A program made the position numbers and the translations under genes. DNA of 62,833 bases from Bacteroidales bacterium (GTDB lineage Bacteria > Bacteroidota > Bacteroidia > Bacteroidales > NBLH01): positions 1 to 62,833 of the forward strand of contig JAFGWC010000054.1 in the NCBI GenBank assembly GCA_016937695.1, in the 5' to 3' direction. Shown here one piece after another: positions 16,858 through 29,099 of the stretch (position 1 is its first letter; every line of letters starts with the position of its first letter). The notes below the pieces were generated by a model that was given only the letters and a program-made list of their open reading frames with translations, made no database searches and was not told the DNA's origin.

Positions 16858-19218
16858 ATGAAAATCCGTGCAAAAATATTTTTATTTATTTTTATAAGTT
16901 CATTTATAGTGTTTGCTATTGTAATTGGTGTAATTGTTTTTAGATATAAAAATTACGCAATAAAAGATGCAAAAAAAATAGCAACTACATATGCATATAA
17001 CGCTGCTAATCAAGTAAAATCTGCATTAGAACACGATATTGGTGTAAGTAAAACATTATCACTTAGCTTTCTGGGTTACGACAATATTCCATCTGTTTTA
17101 AGAAAAAGTGCATATAATGATATGCTAAAAAATGTGCTTATTGGCCATCCTGAATATTTATCAGTTTGGATGTCATGGGAACTTCAATACGTAAAAAAAG
17201 GCTATAATAAACCATACGGACGAGAAAGAACAGCAACTCTAAAAGAATCTGGCAATATAACTTTTTATGTAGATACAGTTGAAACAGATGGCGATAATCT
17301 TGGCAGCCTTTACTACAAACAAAAAATTACCGGAGACGATCTTTTAACCGATCCATATTATTATGTTTATTCCAAAACCGAAAATGCCGATTCTATTTTA
17401 GAAACAAGTATTGCAACTCCTATAATTAAAAATGGTGAATTTATTGGTATTTCAGGTATTGATATCACTTTAAACAGATTTCAAAACATAATTGAACAAA
17501 TAAAACCATTTAAAGACAGTTATGCATTTTTAATCTCAAACAACGGCGTAATTGTTTCATATCCTAATGAAGAACATAACGGCGATAGTTTAATTAAAAT
17601 ATATCCGCAATTTAAAGAATTAAATACATTAGAGAAAATAAGAGAGGGCAGAACCTTTTCTTTTAATTTTAATGATAGTTTAAATTATTCAAACTTTGTA
17701 ACATTTGCACCAATTAAAGTTGGACGAACAAAAACACCATGGTCGATGTGTTTAATTGCGCCTTCTAAAATTGTTGAAGAAGAAGCTTTATCAAACTTTA
17801 ATATTTCGCTGCTTATAGGTTTTATAGGTATTCTGATTTTCTCTCTTTTCACATTATTTATAGCACAAAGAATAACATCTCCTCTTCATCAAAGTACATT
17901 GATACTTAAGGATTTAGATAAAGGAATAATAGATTTTTCAAAAAAATTAAAAGTACGTTCAAAAGATGAACTTGCAGAAATGGGTAATTCATTAAATAAA
18001 CTAATGGATACTTTAAGCAATACTGCAAATTTTGCTAAAAAAGTAGGACAAGGAGATTTTACAGCTAAATACACAGCTTTAAGTAAACACGATGTTCTTG
18101 GAAATGCATTAATTGACATGCAAAATAATTTACAAAAATCTCAGGAACAGGAAGATATAAGAATTTTAGAACAAAAAAAATCTACTTGGGCACAAGAAGG
18201 TATTTCAATTCTAGGAGAAACTCTAAGAAAAAGTACCGATGATTATCAAGTATATTTGTTTAATATCATCAGTACTGTTGTTAATTATTTAAATGCCGAT
18301 CAAGGAGGAATTTTTATTTATTACAACAATAAAGACGAAGCTCCTTATTTAGAGCTAGTTACAGCTTATGCTTATGATAAAAAGAAAGCTTTAAACTTAA
18401 AAGTTGAACCGGGTGAAAGTCTTGTTGGAAGATGTTTTAAAGAAAAAGAACTAATTTATTTAAATGATATTCCGGAAGGCTATACATTTATTTCTTCAGG
18501 ACTAGGTGAACATGAACCTAAAAGTTTAGTGCTTTTGCCTCTTATATTTGAAAATGAGGTTTTTGGAGTCATTGAAATTGCTTCTTTTAACGAAATTCTT
18601 GATTTCGAATTTGAATTTTTAAGAAATGCAGGAGAACGAATTGCCTCTTCAATTTCAGTTTTACAAAAAACAATAGAAACCAGAAAACTTCTTGAACAAT
18701 CGCAAATTCAATCTGAAAAATTACAAGATAGAGAAAAAGCTTTGCAAGACAACCTTATAAATCTGCAAAAAGCACAAGAAGAAGCAGCAACACGAGAAAA
18801 AGAAACAGCCGGTATTATTGATGCAATTTCTGCAATGGCATCTGTTGTTTGGTACGATTTAGAAGGCAAAATTATAAATATTATCGACCCTAATCTTGAA
18901 GATGCAGGTTTATCTGCCAAAGAAATGATAGGACATTTTCAATCGGAATTTGCACCGGAAACAGAATCAGACCCAAAAGGATATAAAAGATTTTGGAACG
19001 ACCTTAATGCCGGAAAGACTAAAGAACGATTATTTAAAACAGAAACAAGCAAAGGAACTCTCTGGATTTCAGAAACTTACGTGCCAATTAAAGACGTTTC
19101 GGGTAATCCGGATAAAGTCATTAATATTGGTTTTAATATCACGAAACAAAAAGAGCTTGAAAAAGAAATATATAATTTACAAAAAGAACTAAAAGAATTA
19201 AAAGATAAATTTTCCTAG
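16858..19218 (+). CDS. Membrane sensor protein: dCache-HAMP-GAF-PAS without output domain
   Basis: The 786-residue protein has a membrane helix at about 7-28, a large periplasmic double Cache (PDC) sensor (about 35-300; typical VWMSWELQYV, DPYYYVYSKT, ISGIDITLNRF, YAFLISNNGVIVSYP), a second helix at about 313-334, a HAMP-like linker to about 420, a GAF domain (about 440-600; LVGRCFKEKELIYLNDIP and LVLLPLIFENEVFGVIEIAS), a coiled coil and a C-terminal PAS domain (about 655-770). It has no histidine kinase, cyclase, GGDEF/EAL or chemotaxis signalling domain after the PAS. It may work through partners. The small gene after it (19374) is not an obvious partner. Confidence 0.88.
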   Translation: MKIRAKIFLFIFISSFIVFAIVIGVIVFRYKNYAIKDAKKIATTYAYNAANQVKSALEHDIGVSKTLSLSFLGYDNIPSVLRKSAYNDMLKNVLIGHPEYLSVWMSWELQYVKKGYNKPYGRERTATLKESGNITFYVDTVETDGDNLGSLYYKQKITGDDLLTDPYYYVYSKTENADSILETSIATPIIKNGEFIGISGIDITLNRFQNIIEQIKPFKDSYAFLISNNGVIVSYPNEEHNGDSLIKIYPQFKELNTLEKIREGRTFSFNFNDSLNYSNFVTFAPIKVGRTKTPWSMCLIAPSKIVEEEALSNFNISLLIGFIGILIFSLFTLFIAQRITSPLHQSTLILKDLDKGIIDFSKKLKVRSKDELAEMGNSLNKLMDTLSNTANFAKKVGQGDFTAKYTALSKHDVLGNALIDMQNNLQKSQEQEDIRILEQKKSTWAQEGISILGETLRKSTDDYQVYLFNIISTVVNYLNADQGGIFIYYNNKDEAPYLELVTAYAYDKKKALNLKVEPGESLVGRCFKEKELIYLNDIPEGYTFISSGLGEHEPKSLVLLPLIFENEVFGVIEIASFNEILDFEFEFLRNAGERIASSISVLQKTIETRKLLEQSQIQSEKLQDREKALQDNLINLQKAQEEAATREKETAGIIDAISAMASVVWYDLEGKIINIIDPNLEDAGLSAKEMIGHFQSEFAPETESDPKGYKRFWNDLNAGKTKERLFKTETSKGTLWISETYVPIKDVSGNPDKVINIGFNITKQKELEKEIYNLQKELKELKDKFS

Positions 19219-19792: not shown

Positions 19793-22700
19793 CTATTCAA
19801 TTATTATCAATCTACTTCCTAAAACTTCTTTTGATTCAAACTTAACAACATAAACTCCTGAATCTAAATAATTTAAATCAATAGTTGAAGATTCGTTAAG
19901 CTTATACGATTCTATAAATAAACCTGTTGTTGTATAAATTTTCACTATTGCATCAGAATAATTAAAATAATTACTGATATTAATTATTCCATCAGATGGA
20001 TTTGGATAAATTGAAAATACTGATTTTGAAATATCATTTACAGATGTGCTTCCATCACTTACACTTATTGTTTTTGACACAACAGCAGCATTATACTTAT
20101 CGTTTCCGTTTTGATAGGCTTCAACAGTTATATTTCCGGTACTGGTAAAATAAAGTTGATTTCCTGAAATTGTTCCTGTTCCGGATGTAATTCTAAAACT
20201 AACAGTTAAACCCGATGATGAACTTGCAGCTAATTCAACATTTCCTTCAGAAAGTTCAATTTCTGATTGCAAATTAAATGTAATAGTTTGAGAACCTTTA
20301 ACAACATCAAATTCTTTTTGATCGCTTGCAGCTAATGTTGTGCTATTTCCTGAGTTATAAGCTTTTACAACTACAGTTCCTAAATCATTAACAGTTAAAA
20401 CATTACCAATTAAAGTTGCAGGTCCGCTTACAATTTCATATTCCAAAGGCAAATCTTCTGATGATTCTGCATTTACCATAAATGGTGCAGAACCATATCC
20501 TTTATCAGAAATATTTTCAATTTTAACAATTTGCCCATTAAAATTTTCTTCATCAAGTTTTAAACGCAATAAAATCGGATTATGGTCAGAATAACTTGTA
20601 GAACCAATAGACCAATTATTTGTTAACGATTGGTGCTCAAAATACAATTCGTTTGATAAAGAAATATGATCAATTGAAGCTCCTGCAGCACGTAGATAAT
20701 CTTCATTTGCATTTTCCCACCATGTAATATACGGACTATCGCCGCCCGACATGCTTCCAATGTAATAATCATTATAATCGCCAAGCACTATAACATTCTC
20801 ATTATCAAAGTTTTCGTCTAATTCTGCTTTTAAAAATAAAGCGTCCGCAACTTTCCTATCTTTACTATCAGAACAGCATTTTGTATGAATATTTATAAAG
20901 TCTAAAGGAACTGTAATGCCATCAATTGTAACATCAGCCTGAAGCAAAAATGGTAAGCGACCGGATGCCCAAAATGTTGATGCTGTTCCCGTGTATCCTT
21001 CAATATAAGTTACACTTGAATTAGGATATAAATCTGAAAACATTGATTCTGATTGCACATTTGCAAAATTAGCTGTTTTGTATATATAGCAAACACGTTG
21101 TGCCGGCCAAGTATTTGAAGGTGTTTGAAAATCAAGTGAAAAACGAGGTCCAAATACGCCTGTATAAGTTCCTTCACCTGCCTGATTATTTAACGCTTCT
21201 ACTAAAGGCGCTAGAAAATCTCCGTTTACATTATCTACAATAACTTCTTGCAAGGCATAAATATCTGCATCTAGGTTTAAAATTGTTGTAGCAACACTTG
21301 CCAGTTTTGCATCCCAATTTGGATAACTTTTTTCTGATATCCCAAAATATTCCAGATTCCATGTTACTATATCTAAAGTTTCTTCTCTTGATAAAGAACT
21401 TGCATCAGTTGGAAAATTAGAATTTTCAGCTACTGTAATATCAACAATTAAATTGGTGACATTTGTTGTGCTGTGCGAAATGCTACCTGTAAATTCACCT
21501 AAATAATTTTCAATTGGTCTATATCTTACAAACACCTGTTTATCAGTAGCTTCGCCTTGATTTATTGTTACTGATGTTTGCCATAAAGCTTCATCTAAAG
21601 AAAGCTCAAAAGGTAATTCGGTTGTAATATTAATGTTACCTTCTAAATTTTCGCCTGAAACAGTGTAACTAATTGTAGCACTTGTGTTTCCTGCTTCGGT
21701 ATATTCAAAATTTAAGTTTGATGTGCTGCTCGAAATTTGTGCAATTGAATTAATTCCTTTCAGGCTTATATCATCTATATTAATACGAGAAGAAAATCCT
21801 GATGTTGAGCCACTTACATGCTTAAAAGCTAAATAATATGAACTTTCGCTAATATTCTGTAAATCAGTAGTATATTCTGCCCAGTTTTCTGCAAAAGAAA
21901 CATCTTCAATTTTAGTCCAGTTAGCATCATTTGGATTTCCTGAACCAATATAATCAGTAGAATAAAACAATTCGATAGTGCTTCCTGAATATGTCCACTC
22001 CATCCAGTAATTTAATTTTATATCAGAATATGAAGAAATATCAAATTGTGGACTTATAAGCCAATCTTCGCTATTTGCATCTGCTTGATAATTATTAATT
22101 GCTATTGCAACTCCACCGCCATATCCATAAACATCGCAAGTCCAGTCTTTGTTGCTGCTTACGCTATATTTTGTCCAATCTGGCGCACAATTTGTTTCAA
22201 AATTTTGAGTATAAATATCAACAGGTATTAATAGTGGATTTCCTTCGGTTCCTGAAACTGTTAAATTTGCAAGATTTGTTCCACTATAATGTTCTATAAT
22301 TCCATTAACTTCTTCACCAACAGCTGATTCCGGTGCAAATCTCACATAAATTGTTGTAGATTCAAGATTTCCATCTGTTACATTTAATTCAAGATGTTTA
22401 ACAAAATCAATATCGTTTAATGATATTTCAAAATGCTCAGGTGCATCAATATTTAAAGTTTCATCAAGTTCTGTTCCTTCAACAAGGTATGTTTTTGATT
22501 CGGAAACCGTGCCGTATTGAACAACAGGAAAAGCATCAATACTTGTAAGTTTTATGCCCGAACTTGTGCTTCCGGGCCAAGCAAGTCCTTGTTTATCGCC
22601 CCAAATATAATCTACTAGATTTGGATTATCAATAAACGGATTTCTATTATTTTGCCAATCATAAACCACATTATTCCTGCGCATTTCAAAATCATCAGGT

Positions 22701-23428
22701 GCATCTAATTTATCCCATTGAAGCAAAGCTGTTAAATCACCAATGATTTGTCCGTCTTGATCGCCGGCAGCAAGACTAAGTGCGTCGTATCTTATTTCCA
22801 TATAAAAAAGAGCACGTGCCACATCGCCTTTTGCACTAAGCGGCGGTTCGTAAAAATAACTATTTTTTGTTCGTGGTCCGCTAACATTACCGAAATCTAA
22901 ATTTCCACGATTACTGTTTTCACCTACAAAAGAAGCTCTAAGATGATGCGCATCTCCGTGAGCATGAGTTATTTGCGATGAACTTGTAGAAAAATAAACA
23001 TCTTTTCCATCAGAGCTTGTGCTTGTTCCATCTGCAAATCCGCCACGCGTTTGCGGGAATATGTGCTCTCTGTTCCAACCTGTACTTCCGCCTGTATTTT
23101 GTTCTGATTTATCTATACCTGATTCTATGTATATTTGCCAAACTTGATTTGTATTTGCCGGATTTTCATCTGCTTCTCTCAGCATTAACCAAACATCGCC
23201 ATAATTCTGTCCTTTTGTTGTTGAGTTTACCACGATGTTTTTCAGCGCATTACGAAGCTCTGTGCCGCTCAAACCAATTAATTGGCTATAATAATCGCTT
23301 GAGGCTGTGGATTGTACATTTCCATAGGTTGGATTTGAAGGCGTTCCTATTTGTGCCTGGATAGAATATGCTACAAACAATATTAAAAATGTAAAATATT
23401 GTCTGTATTTTATTTTTTTTTGTATCAT
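19793..23428 (-). CDS. T9SS-secreted double nuclease: EndA-type domain plus EEP-type domain
   Basis: The 1211-residue protein has a signal peptide (ends near IQAQ), an endonuclease I/EndA-like His-metal nuclease (about 40-300: GWNREHIFPQ near 118, GDAHHLRAS near 158, NRGNLDFG near 171), a choice-of-anchor-type beta domain (about 400-560), Ig-like linkers, and a full endonuclease/exonuclease/phosphatase domain (about 680-955: TWNLEYFG, YALQEV, FINIHTK, VLGDYNDY, SIDHISL, SDHNPILL). Two more beta domains and a T9SS type A sorting domain (SVFSIYPNPSDGIINIS to the end) follow. All catalytic motifs of both nuclease folds appear intact. It should act outside the cell on nucleic acids. It lies downstream of the TonB receptor and lipoprotein genes in the same direction, behind a hairpin at 23522-23555. 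Confidence 0.92.
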   Translation of the reverse strand: MIQKKIKYRQYFTFLILFVAYSIQAQIGTPSNPTYGNVQSTASSDYYSQLIGLSGTELRNALKNIVVNSTTKGQNYGDVWLMLREADENPANTNQVWQIYIESGIDKSEQNTGGSTGWNREHIFPQTRGGFADGTSTSSDGKDVYFSTSSSQITHAHGDAHHLRASFVGENSNRGNLDFGNVSGPRTKNSYFYEPPLSAKGDVARALFYMEIRYDALSLAAGDQDGQIIGDLTALLQWDKLDAPDDFEMRRNNVVYDWQNNRNPFIDNPNLVDYIWGDKQGLAWPGSTSSGIKLTSIDAFPVVQYGTVSESKTYLVEGTELDETLNIDAPEHFEISLNDIDFVKHLELNVTDGNLESTTIYVRFAPESAVGEEVNGIIEHYSGTNLANLTVSGTEGNPLLIPVDIYTQNFETNCAPDWTKYSVSSNKDWTCDVYGYGGGVAIAINNYQADANSEDWLISPQFDISSYSDIKLNYWMEWTYSGSTIELFYSTDYIGSGNPNDANWTKIEDVSFAENWAEYTTDLQNISESSYYLAFKHVSGSTSGFSSRINIDDISLKGINSIAQISSSTSNLNFEYTEAGNTSATISYTVSGENLEGNINITTELPFELSLDEALWQTSVTINQGEATDKQVFVRYRPIENYLGEFTGSISHSTTNVTNLIVDITVAENSNFPTDASSLSREETLDIVTWNLEYFGISEKSYPNWDAKLASVATTILNLDADIYALQEVIVDNVNGDFLAPLVEALNNQAGEGTYTGVFGPRFSLDFQTPSNTWPAQRVCYIYKTANFANVQSESMFSDLYPNSSVTYIEGYTGTASTFWASGRLPFLLQADVTIDGITVPLDFINIHTKCCSDSKDRKVADALFLKAELDENFDNENVIVLGDYNDYYIGSMSGGDSPYITWWENANEDYLRAAGASIDHISLSNELYFEHQSLTNNWSIGSTSYSDHNPILLRLKLDEENFNGQIVKIENISDKGYGSAPFMVNAESSEDLPLEYEIVSGPATLIGNVLTVNDLGTVVVKAYNSGNSTTLAASDQKEFDVVKGSQTITFNLQSEIELSEGNVELAASSSSGLTVSFRITSGTGTISGNQLYFTSTGNITVEAYQNGNDKYNAAVVSKTISVSDGSTSVNDISKSVFSIYPNPSDGIINISNYFNYSDAIVKIYTTTGLFIESYKLNESSTIDLNYLDSGVYVVKFESKEVLGSRLIIIE

Positions 23429-23521: not shown

Positions 23522-23555
23522 AAAAAAGTGAAGAGCAATTGCCCTTCACTTTTTT
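23522..23555 (-). terminator. Hairpin between the lipoprotein and nuclease genes
   Basis: AAAAAAGTGAAG (23522-23533) pairs with 23544-23555 around an inner GCAATTGC palindrome. The long stem with flanking A and T runs looks like a terminator on either strand. It would reduce or end transcription from the TonB receptor genes before the nuclease gene starts at 23428. Confidence 0.75.
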
Positions 23556-23578: not shown

Positions 23579-24925
23579 TTAATTTTCAGTTGGTCCTTCA
23601 ACAAGAGTAAACACGCCATTAGCAGTACATTGATATTTTACAGTATAGTAAATATATTTACCACTACCATGATAAGTAGTATAGTTAACTGTATAATAAA
23701 CATCTGCACCGTTTACTGAAGGAACAGCATCAGGATATTTTGCTTGAAGCAAAAAATTAATACCTTCAACAACTCTTTCGTCCATTAATGCTAATCCATC
23801 TTCTTCTGTCATGTCAGCAGGGAAGTTAGTTGGATCATAATTTTGTCGATTGTATAATTGGAAATCAAAGTTGCCATAATAACCACTTGCTCCATAATAA
23901 AATTCAGCAGTTCCGTAGCCATCTAAATACTCAGCTCCAATATTAGCAGCAACATAGCTTACAATAATAGCATAATCAGATTTTTGCATTGTAAATTCTA
24001 CAGAAGGATCGAATTTCCATTCAGAATCTAAAAATAAATATTGTTCTGTTTTTTCAATTTTTTCTGTTGTACTAGACCAGCTTGAGCCATTAAAATAATA
24101 TTCCTGAATATTAGCTAGAGTTGATCCACTATAATATTTATAAGCAACAGATTGAATATCACCAGTTTTAGCTGAAGGATACTTTGTTAATAACCATAAA
24201 GGTAAATAGTAATCAGGATCTATACTTGATGAAAAGTTGTTGTATTGCCCAGGTTTATTAGTACCTTCTCCCATATCATCATAGTCGCCGGTTTGTAAAT
24301 ACAAACCTGTGGTTCCATAATCCCAAGTTGTTCCATTAAAAGTATAATTATCAGCATATTCAGGGCTAGCACCACCATAATATTTATAAACAATAACATA
24401 CTCCTCACCTTCAACTGCGGCAGGATATTTCGTTAGTAACCAATCCGGTAACCACTCATATGAAATTACATCTGCTGAAAAGTTATTATACTCTCCAGGT
24501 TCTAATGTTCCAGTTCCCATATCATCATAATCTGCAGTAGCAAGAGAATACAAAGTTAGATTAGTTGAAGGTAAATAATCAGGATTAATAGCATAGTTAA
24601 AAGTAACTATACAAGCAGCTCCATTATCAAAAGAATTATATTCTTTCATTAAAAAGTAAGGTATAAATACAGATGATGGTGCAGTTTCTGAAAAGTATTT
24701 ATTACTTCCAACACTATTAACAATAACTGAATCTTCGTGAGAAACAGCATCTTTAATAGCCAAGCTTGTAATTGTACCATAATCAGCATCAGCTAAAGTT
24801 ACAGATGTAACATCAATATAAGGAGCATGTATATTATCTTCCATGCCCTCAAACTGATCGTTGTATTTTTCGCAAGCAGTAAATAAAGTAGCTACTGCCA
24901 TAAGCGCTAATAATATTTTTTTCAT
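23579..24925 (-). CDS. Surface lipoprotein with internal repeat, partner of TonB receptor
   Basis: The 448-residue product has a lipoprotein signal (LFTAC, Cys18) followed by acidic residues, often seen on surface-exposed Bacteroidota lipoproteins. Residues about 128-195 and 217-290 are two copies of one unit (DYDDMGxGTxxPGxYNNFS, then LPxWLLTKYPxA and YKYYxG). A C-terminal part has Tyr-rich beta-like sequence (YYTVNYTTYHGSGKYIYYTVKY). It begins 11 bp after the TonB receptor gene, so the two are surely one operon. It may bind the ligand that the receptor imports, as SusD-type lipoproteins do, but it is not SusD-like in sequence. I do not recognise the family. Confidence 0.8.
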   Translation of the reverse strand: MKKILLALMAVATLFTACEKYNDQFEGMEDNIHAPYIDVTSVTLADADYGTITSLAIKDAVSHEDSVIVNSVGSNKYFSETAPSSVFIPYFLMKEYNSFDNGAACIVTFNYAINPDYLPSTNLTLYSLATADYDDMGTGTLEPGEYNNFSADVISYEWLPDWLLTKYPAAVEGEEYVIVYKYYGGASPEYADNYTFNGTTWDYGTTGLYLQTGDYDDMGEGTNKPGQYNNFSSSIDPDYYLPLWLLTKYPSAKTGDIQSVAYKYYSGSTLANIQEYYFNGSSWSSTTEKIEKTEQYLFLDSEWKFDPSVEFTMQKSDYAIIVSYVAANIGAEYLDGYGTAEFYYGASGYYGNFDFQLYNRQNYDPTNFPADMTEEDGLALMDERVVEGINFLLQAKYPDAVPSVNGADVYYTVNYTTYHGSGKYIYYTVKYQCTANGVFTLVEGPTEN

Positions 24926-24936
24926 TTTATTATAAA

Positions 24937-27561
24937 TTAAAAGTTAATTTTTAAACCAAGAGACCAGGTTCTTCCAAAACCGTAAAATACTGTTGCAGTA
25001 TCCCAATCATTAGAAGAGCCATTATTAGCATCAACAATGTATTCTCCATCAAGAATGTTATCAACATTGAAATAAAGAGTAGAATTTAAACCTGAGAATT
25101 TAAAGTTATAAACCATATTTGCATCAATTGTATAGTAATCAGGAACTTGCCAAGTATCTTCACCTGTTAGAGTTGACATACTATAGTTAGCAAATAATCT
25201 TGAATAATATTTTGCATTAATACCAAGCTTAAATCCTTTAAATAATTCATAGTTTACTCCAAGAGAAGCAGTAGTTTGAGCAGCATCGCCAATATGAACA
25301 TCAGCAATTGATAGTGAAGTTTTGTAATGCTCATCGCTATATGGCGTAACAACTTCACCATGACTATCAACAGCATTACCGTTTTTATCAAAAGCATAAG
25401 CAGTAACATCATCAGCCCATTTCCAGTCACCAACAGAAACCATACCTCTGATTGTTAATTTATCGATAGGTTTAGAAACAAAGTCTAATTCAATACCTTT
25501 ATGAACAGCATTAACACCTTCTGCGTTATATACCCCTCTGTTTGGATCATTTCTATCAACCTGACCGTACTGAGTTTTATTGTTCCACATTGTGTAATAT
25601 AAGTTAAAGTTTAAAGTAATAAAATTATATCTCATACCATAACCTAATTCAGCAGAAATAACTTCTTCGTTAAGAGCATCTTCGTTCATAAAATTGCTAA
25701 CATCTTTAGCTGTAAAAACACTGCTAAAGAAAGGCGCTCTTGAAAAATAACCTCCGTTAACAAAAACGTTATGGTTATCGTTTAAATTGTAGTTTGCACC
25801 AGCTTTAGCGCTATAACCTAAAAAGTTAATTTTATCAGATTCTTCATTTGCAGCATCATAATACATTTTATCAACTCTCCAATATTGAGTGTTAGAAATA
25901 GAAGCAGCAACAAAAGTACTTAAATTAGCCATAGGCGTATATTCAACTTGAGCAAATGCACCTTCCCAAAGAACGTGTCCAAAATAATTTCTACCAACAA
26001 CATCGCCAACATACAATTTTTCATTAATATAATTATAGTCATCTCCTCTATAAGTATTTACACGTGTTGCATCAATATAGAAGCTACCGCCCATTAAATC
26101 TTGTATAGTTTTATTATGTTCGCCAATATAATATCTTAAATCAATACCTCCTGAAATATTAAAATTTTCAGAAAAATCTTTATTTAAATTAGAAATAACA
26201 CCATACCACTGGTGGTTGTTATTTGAACTGGAAATAATATTTTCAGAACCATTTAAGGCAGCTGCATTTTCTTCCATAACATAAGCATAATCAACATAAC
26301 CTTCTAAAGTTCTGTTTGTACTGCTTCCATATAATGAGTTAGTATTGCTACCTAAAGCACCATATCCGCCACCAGTACCAAATGAATAGTAAGCAGCTGT
26401 AGATAAGGTTGTTGTATTATCAATAGTCCAATAATGGTTTAAAGAAAACTGAGGTTTGTGATAAAAATTATAATTAGCCGATTTTCTAATACCATCAACA
26501 CCAAAACCATAAGAAGGATTAAAACGATAACCTTCATCATAAGTTTGCCATTGAGCAATAGTTTTCATATCGTAAGTACTTCTTTGATAATGCCATTGTG
26601 GCGCTCCAAAACCTGTTAATGAAAGTAAGTGCTTGTCATTTAATCTTTTAGAGATATTAATAAAATACGAATAACCTTCGAAATTAGTACCTAAAATATA
26701 ACCATCACCTTTAGTTTTAGCACCTAATAAAGTAACAGCCCAATTGTTCTCAGTCATACCTGTAGAAACAGCAAAAGAAACTTTTTGGTAACCATCGTTT
26801 CCAACCATTGTAGAAACAGCACCACCTTTTTTAACTTCAGTAGTATTAGTTACAATGTTGATAGAACCGCCAACAGAAGGTACAGCAATTTTAGAAGCAC
26901 CAAGTCCACGCTGAACTTGCATAGAACGAGTTACATCAGATAAACCGGCCCAATTTGACCAGTAAATACCGCCCCATTCCATATCGTTAACAGGAACACC
27001 GTTAATCATAACAGCGATGTTTTCAGAGCTAAAACCACGAAGATTAATACGAGAATCTCCAAAAGCACCACCTCTTTTAGTAGCATAAACAGAAGGAGTA
27101 TTGCTTAAAATTTCAGGAAATTCTTTTGTTCCTAATTTTTCAAGAATAACTTCCGGGCTAATTGTAGAAACAGCAACAGGAGTTTTTCTGTCAATAGCAA
27201 CAGAAGCAAGAACACTTACTTCAGCAATACCAACAGCGTCAGATTGTAAATCAACTGCAGGTAAAACATTAGCGCCTTCATTAATATCAATATCTTGAGC
27301 TAAAGGCGCATAACCAATAAATGAGATAGATACATTATATTTTCCCACTTTCATATTGGTAATTTTAAAGTTACCGTTAAAATCGGCAACAGTACCATAT
27401 TGAGTACCGTCTGCATGATTAGCAATAACAGTAGCACCAACAAGGGCTTCATCGCCGCTCATTACCTTTCCGGTAAGTTCAGCAGTTCCTTGCCCAAAAA
27501 CACTTATTGAAGAGAAAATAAACCCTGCAATAAGCAAAAAACTAAAAATTTTCTTTTTCAT
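24937..27561 (-). CDS. TonB-dependent outer-membrane receptor
   Basis: The 874-residue protein has a signal peptide (to about 23), a carboxypeptidase-regulatory-like beta domain (about 27-110; GKVMSGDEALVGATVIAN...GNFKITNMKVGKYNVSISFIGY), a plug domain (about 125-240; PEILSNTPSVYATKRGGAFGDSRINLRGFSSENIAVMINGVPVND) and a 22-strand-type barrel ending with an aromatic residue (SLGLKINF). It imports a ligand across the outer membrane with energy from TonB. The operon with a repeat lipoprotein and, after a hairpin, a secreted double nuclease suggests import of nucleic-acid breakdown products. This link is inferred from gene order only. Confidence 0.93.
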   Translation of the reverse strand: MKKKIFSFLLIAGFIFSSISVFGQGTAELTGKVMSGDEALVGATVIANHADGTQYGTVADFNGNFKITNMKVGKYNVSISFIGYAPLAQDIDINEGANVLPAVDLQSDAVGIAEVSVLASVAIDRKTPVAVSTISPEVILEKLGTKEFPEILSNTPSVYATKRGGAFGDSRINLRGFSSENIAVMINGVPVNDMEWGGIYWSNWAGLSDVTRSMQVQRGLGASKIAVPSVGGSINIVTNTTEVKKGGAVSTMVGNDGYQKVSFAVSTGMTENNWAVTLLGAKTKGDGYILGTNFEGYSYFINISKRLNDKHLLSLTGFGAPQWHYQRSTYDMKTIAQWQTYDEGYRFNPSYGFGVDGIRKSANYNFYHKPQFSLNHYWTIDNTTTLSTAAYYSFGTGGGYGALGSNTNSLYGSSTNRTLEGYVDYAYVMEENAAALNGSENIISSSNNNHQWYGVISNLNKDFSENFNISGGIDLRYYIGEHNKTIQDLMGGSFYIDATRVNTYRGDDYNYINEKLYVGDVVGRNYFGHVLWEGAFAQVEYTPMANLSTFVAASISNTQYWRVDKMYYDAANEESDKINFLGYSAKAGANYNLNDNHNVFVNGGYFSRAPFFSSVFTAKDVSNFMNEDALNEEVISAELGYGMRYNFITLNFNLYYTMWNNKTQYGQVDRNDPNRGVYNAEGVNAVHKGIELDFVSKPIDKLTIRGMVSVGDWKWADDVTAYAFDKNGNAVDSHGEVVTPYSDEHYKTSLSIADVHIGDAAQTTASLGVNYELFKGFKLGINAKYYSRLFANYSMSTLTGEDTWQVPDYYTIDANMVYNFKFSGLNSTLYFNVDNILDGEYIVDANNGSSNDWDTATVFYGFGRTWSLGLKINF

Positions 27562-27860: not shown

Positions 27861-29099
27861 TTAATTTTGATTTTTTAAAGAAATATAATTTACAATTTTT
27901 TCAGTTGCGCCTCTATTTATTTCCACATAAATTTTTGCATTTACAGAACTTTCTTTAATTTTAGTTGTATTAGAAATTAAATTTGTCATTATTTTTTCAA
28001 ACGATTTATAATCAGAAATAGTAAAAGCCGCATTGTTTTTTATTAAATCAACAGCTTCTTGATATTTTCTGAAATTTGGTCCAAAAATTACTGGCATACC
28101 AAAAGTTGCAGGTTCTAATACATTATGTATTCCGGAGCCAAAACCACCTCCGATAAATGCAATATTTGCATATTGATATAATGAAGATAAAAGTCCAATA
28201 TTATCAATTATAATAACTTGATATTCAGATATATCATTCATGTTTACATTTGAAAATCTGATTGTTTTTAAATTGATTGAATTAACAATTCTATTTATAT
28301 TAGTTTCATGAATTTCGTGAGGTGCAATAATATATTTAAGATTATTATTTTTATTTATATAATTAATGAAAATATCTTCGTCTGCTTTCCAAGAGCTTCC
28401 GGCAATAAAAACCATATTGTTTTCACAAAATTTTTCAACTATGGGAATTTTTTTTGCATTTTGTGAGATTTGAAATACACGATCAAATCTGGTATCGCCA
28501 GTAATTTCAATATTACTATAATTTAAGGATTTAAGAAGCTGCATTGATTCTTCGTTCTGCACAAAAAAATATGTAAAATAGTTTAGCATTTTTCTGTACC
28601 AAGCACCATACCATTTAAAAAATATTTGATCTTTTCTAAAAATTGTTGAAATAAGATATGTGTTGATATTTAATGACTTAAGAGCTTTTAAATAGTTAAA
28701 CCAAAATTCATATTTAATAAAAACGACAAATTTAGGTTGAATTAATTTAATAAATCTTTCTGCATTTTTTTTTGTGTCGTCTGGCAAGTAGAATACATAA
28801 TCAGCAAACGCGTAATCTTTCATTATTTCGTAACCAGATGGCGAAAAGAAAGTTAGCACAATTTTTAATTCGGGATTTTTTCCTTTTAAATCTTCAATTA
28901 TTGGTCTACCTTGTTCAAATTCGCCAAGAGAAGCAGCATGAAACCAAACTCTGTTTTCGTTATCTTTTAATTGATTTTTTATTTTTTGGAAGATATTTTG
29001 TCTGCCAGCAATCCATTTTTTTGCCTTAACATTAAACAGAGAGCCAATGTTAAGTAATAATCTGAATATTAGAAGACCAAAATGATATAACATTTCCAT
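27861..29099 (-). CDS. waaA: 3-deoxy-D-manno-octulosonic acid (Kdo) transferase
   Basis: The 412-residue protein matches WaaA/KdtA: an N-terminal membrane anchor (YHFGLLIFRLLLNIGSLF), a Rossmann-type acceptor domain with VWFHAASLGEFEQGRPIIE and the TFFSPSGYE motif, FVVFIKYEFWFNYL, then a donor domain with FIAGSSWKADED, APHEIHE, and FIGGGFGSGIHNVLEPATFGMPVIFGPN. It transfers Kdo from CMP-Kdo to lipid IVA at the inner face of the cytoplasmic membrane, an essential step in lipopolysaccharide assembly. The gene stands alone; the TonB receptor gene follows after 299 bp without a clear terminator. Confidence 0.95.
   Translation of the reverse strand: MEMLYHFGLLIFRLLLNIGSLFNVKAKKWIAGRQNIFQKIKNQLKDNENRVWFHAASLGEFEQGRPIIEDLKGKNPELKIVLTFFSPSGYEIMKDYAFADYVFYLPDDTKKNAERFIKLIQPKFVVFIKYEFWFNYLKALKSLNINTYLISTIFRKDQIFFKWYGAWYRKMLNYFTYFFVQNEESMQLLKSLNYSNIEITGDTRFDRVFQISQNAKKIPIVEKFCENNMVFIAGSSWKADEDIFINYINKNNNLKYIIAPHEIHETNINRIVNSINLKTIRFSNVNMNDISEYQVIIIDNIGLLSSLYQYANIAFIGGGFGSGIHNVLEPATFGMPVIFGPNFRKYQEAVDLIKNNAAFTISDYKSFEKIMTNLISNTTKIKESSVNAKIYVEINRGATEKIVNYISLKNQN

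Follow-up and report, generated by a model that had tools for sequence, protein, structure and literature searches.

Vibrio cholerae attacks extracellular DNA with two extracellular enzymes that serve its nutrition, the EndA-family endonuclease Dns (VcEndA) and Xds, an exonuclease of the endonuclease/exonuclease/phosphatase (EEP) family (PMC3212620). The locus considered here comes from a Bacteroidales bacterium described as marine (assembly GCA_016937695.1, contig JAFGWC010000054.1, positions 1 to 62,833, this whole stretch of 62,833 nucleotides being called the window) and encodes the same two families, Endonuclease I and PF03372. Whereas Dns and Xds are separate proteins, the window has both domains in one chain that ends in a type IX secretion system (T9SS) sorting domain, beside genes for a TonB-dependent receptor (TBDR) and a lipoprotein-like protein (LP; Table 1). 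With a secreted hydrolase lined up beside a TonB receptor and a surface lipoprotein, the locus resembles a polysaccharide utilisation locus (PUL) of the SusC/SusD type. PUL-like loci for phosphorus, the phosphate utilisation systems (PUS), are described in Flavobacterium johnsoniae, in which the secreted EndA proteins Fjoh_4721 and Fjoh_4723 are induced by Pi depletion (PMC8115612). The PUS use SusCD-like pairs, however, and the same study lists both Fjoh EndA genes as orphans; they encode an LTD domain and no EEP. Endonuclease I followed by a T9SS tail, as in the window, also characterizes T9SS_DNase_Rie (NF052644, according to the family description) and other T9SS EndA proteins. In Riemerella anatipestifer, a transposon screen of 2021 led to two genes whose markerless deletion, of either one, abolishes natural transformation, i.e. 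RA0C_RS04915, encoding an outer-membrane, carboxypeptidase-regulatory-like protein, and RA0C_RS04920, with DUF5689 and DUF5017 (PMC8459023); tonBA and tonBB mutants of this species are also reduced in transformation, the latter with an iron confound (PMC8383284).

Because the Dns and Xds families serve nutrition, EndA is phosphate-regulated in F. johnsoniae and DNA breakdown by Bacteroidota in marine sediments has been measured by isotope probing (PMC8289736), we read the window locus as one for nucleic-acid acquisition, most likely for feeding, in which a surface nuclease fusion is combined with a TonB-driven import pair, and we hold this to be somewhat probable. Through its EndA domain the T9SS-secreted fusion would cut DNA outside the cell, and possibly RNA, the EEP domain would trim the fragments so made, and LP and TBDR would form a surface import pair carrying nucleic-acid fragments or nucleotides over the outer membrane, most likely as a source of phosphorus, nitrogen and carbon. 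The enzyme half of this scheme is well supported and the import half draws on genomic context and a distant kinship; it is the substrate, the direction of transport, the split of labour between the nuclease domains and the nutritional purpose that we infer.

The sequence-only reading had described two nuclease families with complete motifs in one T9SS-tailed chain, and this description held: the open reading frame (ORF) is exactly as claimed and all three Pfam domains score above their cut-offs. The Endonuclease_1 match reaches 101.4 bits against a curated cut-off of 25 and the columns of the motifs WNREH, DAH, EN..R and RRNN are invariant in an alignment of six sequences, which together assign the domain, at the level of sequence, to the Endonuclease I family. 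The EEP domain is assigned to its superfamily in the same way, by its cut-off and by the N, E, H, D/N, D and DH motifs, seen here as WN.E, ALQE, NIH, GDYND, IDH and SDH in columns that are likewise invariant (six sequences). We take these conserved residues to be the catalytic motifs of the two families. The EndA profile also matches the solved nuclease structures 1ouo and 1oup (1ouo at E 8.6e-10), presumably both of the Vibrio nuclease. With a type A sorting domain and the T9SS translocon gene SprA (595 bits) in the same genome, the fused nuclease is a predicted T9SS cargo, and it falls outside T9SS_DNase_Rie, scoring 19.5 bits against a cut-off of 260 over its C-terminal part only. The 'beta linkers' of the sequence-only reading correspond to one choice-of-anchor J domain between the nucleases (not found in the fused relative L042) and to remaining sequence that has no Pfam or NCBIfam match. 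The predicted fold of the fused nuclease (pLDDT 41.7 from 5 sequences) was not used. A second EndA protein is encoded elsewhere in this genome (G000:C152).

Table 1. Coordinates of the features of the locus and its surroundings in the window.
Feature	Position	Strand	Remarks
Fused nuclease gene, 1211 aa	19793..23428	(-)	EndA, choice-of-anchor J, EEP, T9SS tail
Endonuclease I/EndA (Endonuclease_1, PF04231), residues 55-269	22622..23266	(-)	Pfam E 8.6e-29
Choice-of-anchor J domain, residues 406-555	21764..22213	(-)	NCBIfam; between both nuclease domains
EEP domain (Exo_endo_phos, PF03372), residues 688-949	20582..21367	(-)	Pfam E 3.4e-8, 34 bits vs cut-off 24.5
T9SS type A sorting domain (Por_Secre_tail), residues 1140-1209	19802..20011	(-)	Pfam E 4.7e-10, above cut-off; NCBIfam
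Lipoprotein-like protein (LP), 448 aa, repeated motifs, TBDR partner	23579..24925	(-)	Predicted surface lipoprotein
TonB-dependent receptor (TBDR), group 1	24937..27561	(-)	Plug and barrel above Pfam cut-off
Terminator-like hairpin and T-run, LP/nuclease gap	23522..23555	(-)	Folding: whole gap z -4.29, 0/200 shuffles as stable
kdtA-like Kdo transferase	27861..29099	(-)	Syntenic neighbour, no functional part of locus

Judged from sequence, the EndA-EEP fusion proteins make up a small family in which the order of the domains varies. A first search of 149 related genomes gave EndA plus EEP relatives, full-length or split, in G089, G001, G006 and G004 (the last cut by a contig end), and a protein with reversed domain order in G087. 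When an EEP alignment was scanned against a collection of 84,980 species genomes, 80 of 90 confirmed relatives were kept, 13 of which carry EndA in the same ORF, making with the window 14 genomes and three domain orders. The EndA-EEP order occurs in L051, L052, L102 (cut) and L117, corresponding by length to the contigs of G001, G089, G004 and G006, as well as in L053, L054, L055, L058 and L059 (Labilibaculum and a Marinifilaceae metagenome-assembled genome), with proteins of up to 2275 aa; EndA-EEP-EndA is found in L061 (2768 aa) and L062 (3510 aa), and EEP-EndA in L056 (the G087 contig) and L057. A fifteenth genome, G101 (locus L313), has a more distant EndA-EEP protein. The remaining 67 of the 80 relatives have no EndA in the EEP ORF; L125 and L128 encode EndA and EEP as separate ORFs of one locus, L063 and L064 are close EEP relatives without EndA, and L060 is cut by a contig end. 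Rows L131 and L146 of the EndA tree, labelled single in error, are the fused proteins of the window and G006. Giant multi-nuclease proteins with a T9SS tail (2174 to 3510 aa) are encoded in L053, L061 and L062 (Labilibaculum, Prolixibacteraceae), combining one or two EndA domains with EEP, Calx-beta and DUF6359, and with LTD in L053 (below cut-off in L062).

These relatives bear on a further explanation, namely that the substrates of the EEP domain are lipid head groups or other phosphodiesters, in which case a nuclease would be joined to an unrelated esterase. EEP is a broad superfamily, the Pfam score of the domain is modest (34 bits) and few relatives of known structure match its profile, yet the best of these are an EEP protein (9sf9/9sf8, E 3.5e-4) and then, weakly, exodeoxyribonucleases. 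Moreover, EEP is repeatedly linked to EndA, distant relatives bear LTD with DUF5689 (L065) or LTD (L070) and some relatives DUF6359 in the same chain, arrangements with EEP that are known from ExeM/Xds-type nucleases. We regard an esterase role as very unlikely.

The receptor and lipoprotein-like genes exist upstream as the sequence-only reading had placed them, separated by 11 bp. The genome has a single receptor of this kind, the TBDR, which scores 1245 bits to its own profile (built with the window sequence included) vs 155 bits for the next receptor. We defined a group 1 pair as a receptor above 600 bits to the TBDR profile with an adjoining LP of the window type, and by its sequences the window pair, itself present in both defining alignments, belongs to this group. 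LP homologues occur in 26 of the 149 relatives and in 75 of 393 genomes of the order, and the receptor adjoins LP in 67 of 72 Bacteroidales LP loci that were fetched, all from outside the window's clade. LP gave no Pfam and no NCBIfam match at E<=0.01; among six relatives scanned, three match DUF5017 and three match nothing. A SusD-like nature of LP was rejected for want of any SusD-family match, and the receptor stands apart from those rows of the tree that we assume to be of SusC type, both points setting the pair off from a SusC/SusD PUL. No publication describing either the group 1 pair or the EndA-EEP fusion was found in open-licence PubMed Central (preprints not covered).

Within the window's clade the order TBDR-LP-nuclease is shared by four of the five genomes, i.e. 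the window, L039 (G089), L040 (G001) and L042 (G006). For the pairs outside it, we scored EndA, EEP, EEP3, NPP (type I phosphodiesterase/nucleotide pyrophosphatase, PF01663), 5'-nucleotidase and PhoD among the neighbouring genes, taken as mechanical ORFs of >=100 aa with overlaps removed; for NPP, 5'-nucleotidase, PhoD and EEP3, recognition relied on similarity to a single Pfam-verified sequence per enzyme, and several loci stop at contig edges. This list was chosen after seeing the first 25 loci (L161-L185), so the full-sample test (13/239 genes near vs 2/336 far, p=6.5e-4) is partly circular, and the list was therefore tested on 47 loci fetched later. In the held-out test, which is the one to trust, a scored hydrolase is encoded by 9 of the 160 genes no more than two positions from the pair vs 2 of the 238 that lie three to eight positions away (one-sided p=0.006); the near hits are spread over 6 of 28 families (automatic labels, f1..f119), and seven are left without L313. 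EndA, NPP or 5'-nucleotidase thus flank a minority of pairs more often than position predicts. Pfam-verified examples beside the pair are NPP in L171, L176, L177 and L226 and EndA in L208, L209, L309 and L313, and in L180 a Pfam-verified 5'-nucleotidase adjoins an EndA recognized by profile only. In two genomes outside the class (L239 and L241), tandem group 1-type receptors are followed by a nucleotide-pyrophosphatase-like gene.

In L313 (G101, another family of the order), three genes for T9SS-tailed EndA proteins lie downstream of a group 1 receptor gene (818 bits) and on its strand, with gaps of 63, 33 and 57 bp. The C-terminal module known from the LP family recurs in the second and third of these proteins (E 3e-9 and 8e-13 in a search of 6079 ORFs), and no other ORF of that set has the LP module together with a nuclease. 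The third reads EndA-LP module-EEP-T9SS, its EEP domain being above cut-off and only a distant match to that of the window. At the level of predicted proteins, L313 ties the lipoprotein module and the nucleases physically together.

A kinship to the transformation receptor of Riemerella emerged from locus L302 (G736), which contains ComEC, two genes, an EEP gene of the PF19580 type, a receptor with PF13620 and a lipoprotein with DUF5689 and DUF5017 (the latter below cut-off), with RecA 5 kb before ComEC. Order, spacing and domains agree with the published locus, for which reason we take L302 to be the Riemerella transformation locus. The PF19580 EEP gene divergently adjoins this presumed transformation receptor (L302:6933-12634) and is a candidate nuclease of the transformation system. 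The L302 receptor belongs to a second group of receptors (group 2), not to group 1. Of 30 receptors counted as group 2 by score, including L253, which the tree sets outside that group, 25 have a DUF5689-type lipoprotein and 23 a PF19580-type EEP gene within two genes. In a tree of 33 rows, hand-picked from 60 (six long-branch or odd-composition rows and L245 were left out on purpose), group 1, which holds the window receptor, and group 2 come out as two distinct clades (support 97/99 and 100/100, respectively). A larger clade, supported at 97/96, takes in both of them and a small third branch and excludes the remaining 11 receptors. The branch that unites only groups 1 and 2 is weak in this tree (61/32) and reaches 94 by the SH-like approximate likelihood ratio test (SH-aLRT) in a quick tree of all 60 rows. 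The window and L302 receptors share 22% identity over 795 columns (E 2e-30). Given the separate groups and this identity, the window pair is, as far as sequence can place it, a relative of the Riemerella transformation pair and not a member: both comprise a TBDR-like receptor and a lipoprotein with an EEP gene or domain nearby, whereas the pair of Riemerella, needed for transformation (PMC8459023), is of group 2 and that of the window of group 1, its LP lacking DUF5689.

The same evidence frames a second explanation, in which the window pair is itself a natural-transformation machine for intact DNA, as in Riemerella, and the fused nuclease processes or limits the incoming DNA. The common clade (97/96) and the PF19580-type EEP genes within two genes of 23 of the 30 receptors would fit, as would the ComEC and HHH_3 domains present in the window's genome, although both also match in genomes such as E. 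coli. The window receptor lies outside the group 2 clade, however, at 22% identity to the L302 receptor, and DUF5689 was found neither in the window LP nor anywhere in the window's genome, which speaks against a second, Riemerella-type pair there. ComEC was not found near the receptor in 34 loci of the phylum (L227 being the ComEC source itself) and, of 13 later loci, was found only in L302. A surface nuclease pair would, in addition, be expected to destroy transforming DNA. We consider a transformation machine unlikely.

The weak branch uniting groups 1 and 2 and the low receptor identity weigh against the foraging reading of the window locus, and so does a series of other observations. NPP enzymes can act on other phosphodiesters, and 59 of the 72 pairs have no scored hydrolase within three genes. 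A structure model of LP (pLDDT 82.7) gave no clear fold match, the best being at E 2.7e-3 and TM 0.13 in Foldseek and at Z 4.0 and 15.9 Å in VIA-align. The LP/nuclease gap holds a stable hairpin and T-run in all four loci with the conserved order, in unrelated sequences (a separate pattern scan did not list the window hairpin that folding finds), so the nuclease is probably transcribed apart from LP and TBDR or by partial read-through, and not in a simple operon. The fifth clade genome (G004, L041; gapped contig) has no LP at the nuclease, whose surroundings include another TBDR and a gene judged ATPase-like by eye, and a phmmer search did not find the pair within 10 kb of any of six other fused loci examined (L053, L057, L058, L059, L061 and L062). 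The claim of the sequence-only reading that nuclease and pair form one set is thereby weakened, the pair being wider than the nuclease and separated from it by a hairpin, and the conservation of TBDR-LP-EndA-EEP that it looked for holds in four of five clade genomes and at none of the six other fused loci examined.

The hairpins, the pairs without hydrolase neighbours, the fused loci without the pair and the G004 nuclease beside another TBDR would all suit a third explanation, that the pair imports an unrelated ligand and the nuclease is an independent syntenic neighbour degrading extracellular DNA alone, for biofilm turnover or nutrition. This explanation sits poorly with the position-specific recurrence of EndA, NPP and 5'-nucleotidase genes next to the pair across distinct families, with the LP module inside the L313 EndA proteins and with the clade shared with the transformation receptor, and we judge it rather unlikely.

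The foraging reading accordingly changes in character. The PUL-like set for nucleic acid proposed by the sequence-only reading keeps its theme, through the EndA, NPP and 5'-nucleotidase neighbours, L313 and the kinship to Riemerella, and loses its model, the pair not being of SusC/SusD type. That reading is partly supported, and the pair is now compared with a DNA-uptake pair, as its relative, and no longer with a PUL. For the Bacteroidota at large we suggest, tentatively and with some doubt, a phylum-wide family of TonB-driven nucleic-acid importers, each made up of a receptor and its surface lipoprotein, in which group 2, with DUF5689 lipoprotein and EEP neighbour, would serve transformation and group 1 feeding, the LP module and one or more nucleases having become fused, in some lineages, to form secreted multi-nuclease proteins. 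Such a family would amount to a PUL-like system for DNA and to a pilus-independent route for DNA over the outer membrane. This bears on how Bacteroidota without recognizable type IV pili move DNA across that membrane, a question for which the Riemerella screen named a receptor-lipoprotein pair of unproven mechanism (PMC8459023). If the window pair is a feeding relative, the uptake question becomes testable in non-pathogenic strains, whether marine or from the laboratory, and candidate importers would be at hand for the recycling of DNA by sediment Bacteroidota (PMC8289736).

Around the locus, an RNA-family search of the window gave one tRNA and nothing else. A Cache-HAMP-GAF-PAS protein, with no kinase or output domain above cut-off, adjoins the locus on the other strand (16858-19218). 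The receptor gene is directly preceded by the kdtA-like gene in the window, L042, L164 and L174 (the last two by eye, from the protein start); in L039 the kdtA-like gene is likewise upstream, and in L041 it lies upstream of a different TBDR.

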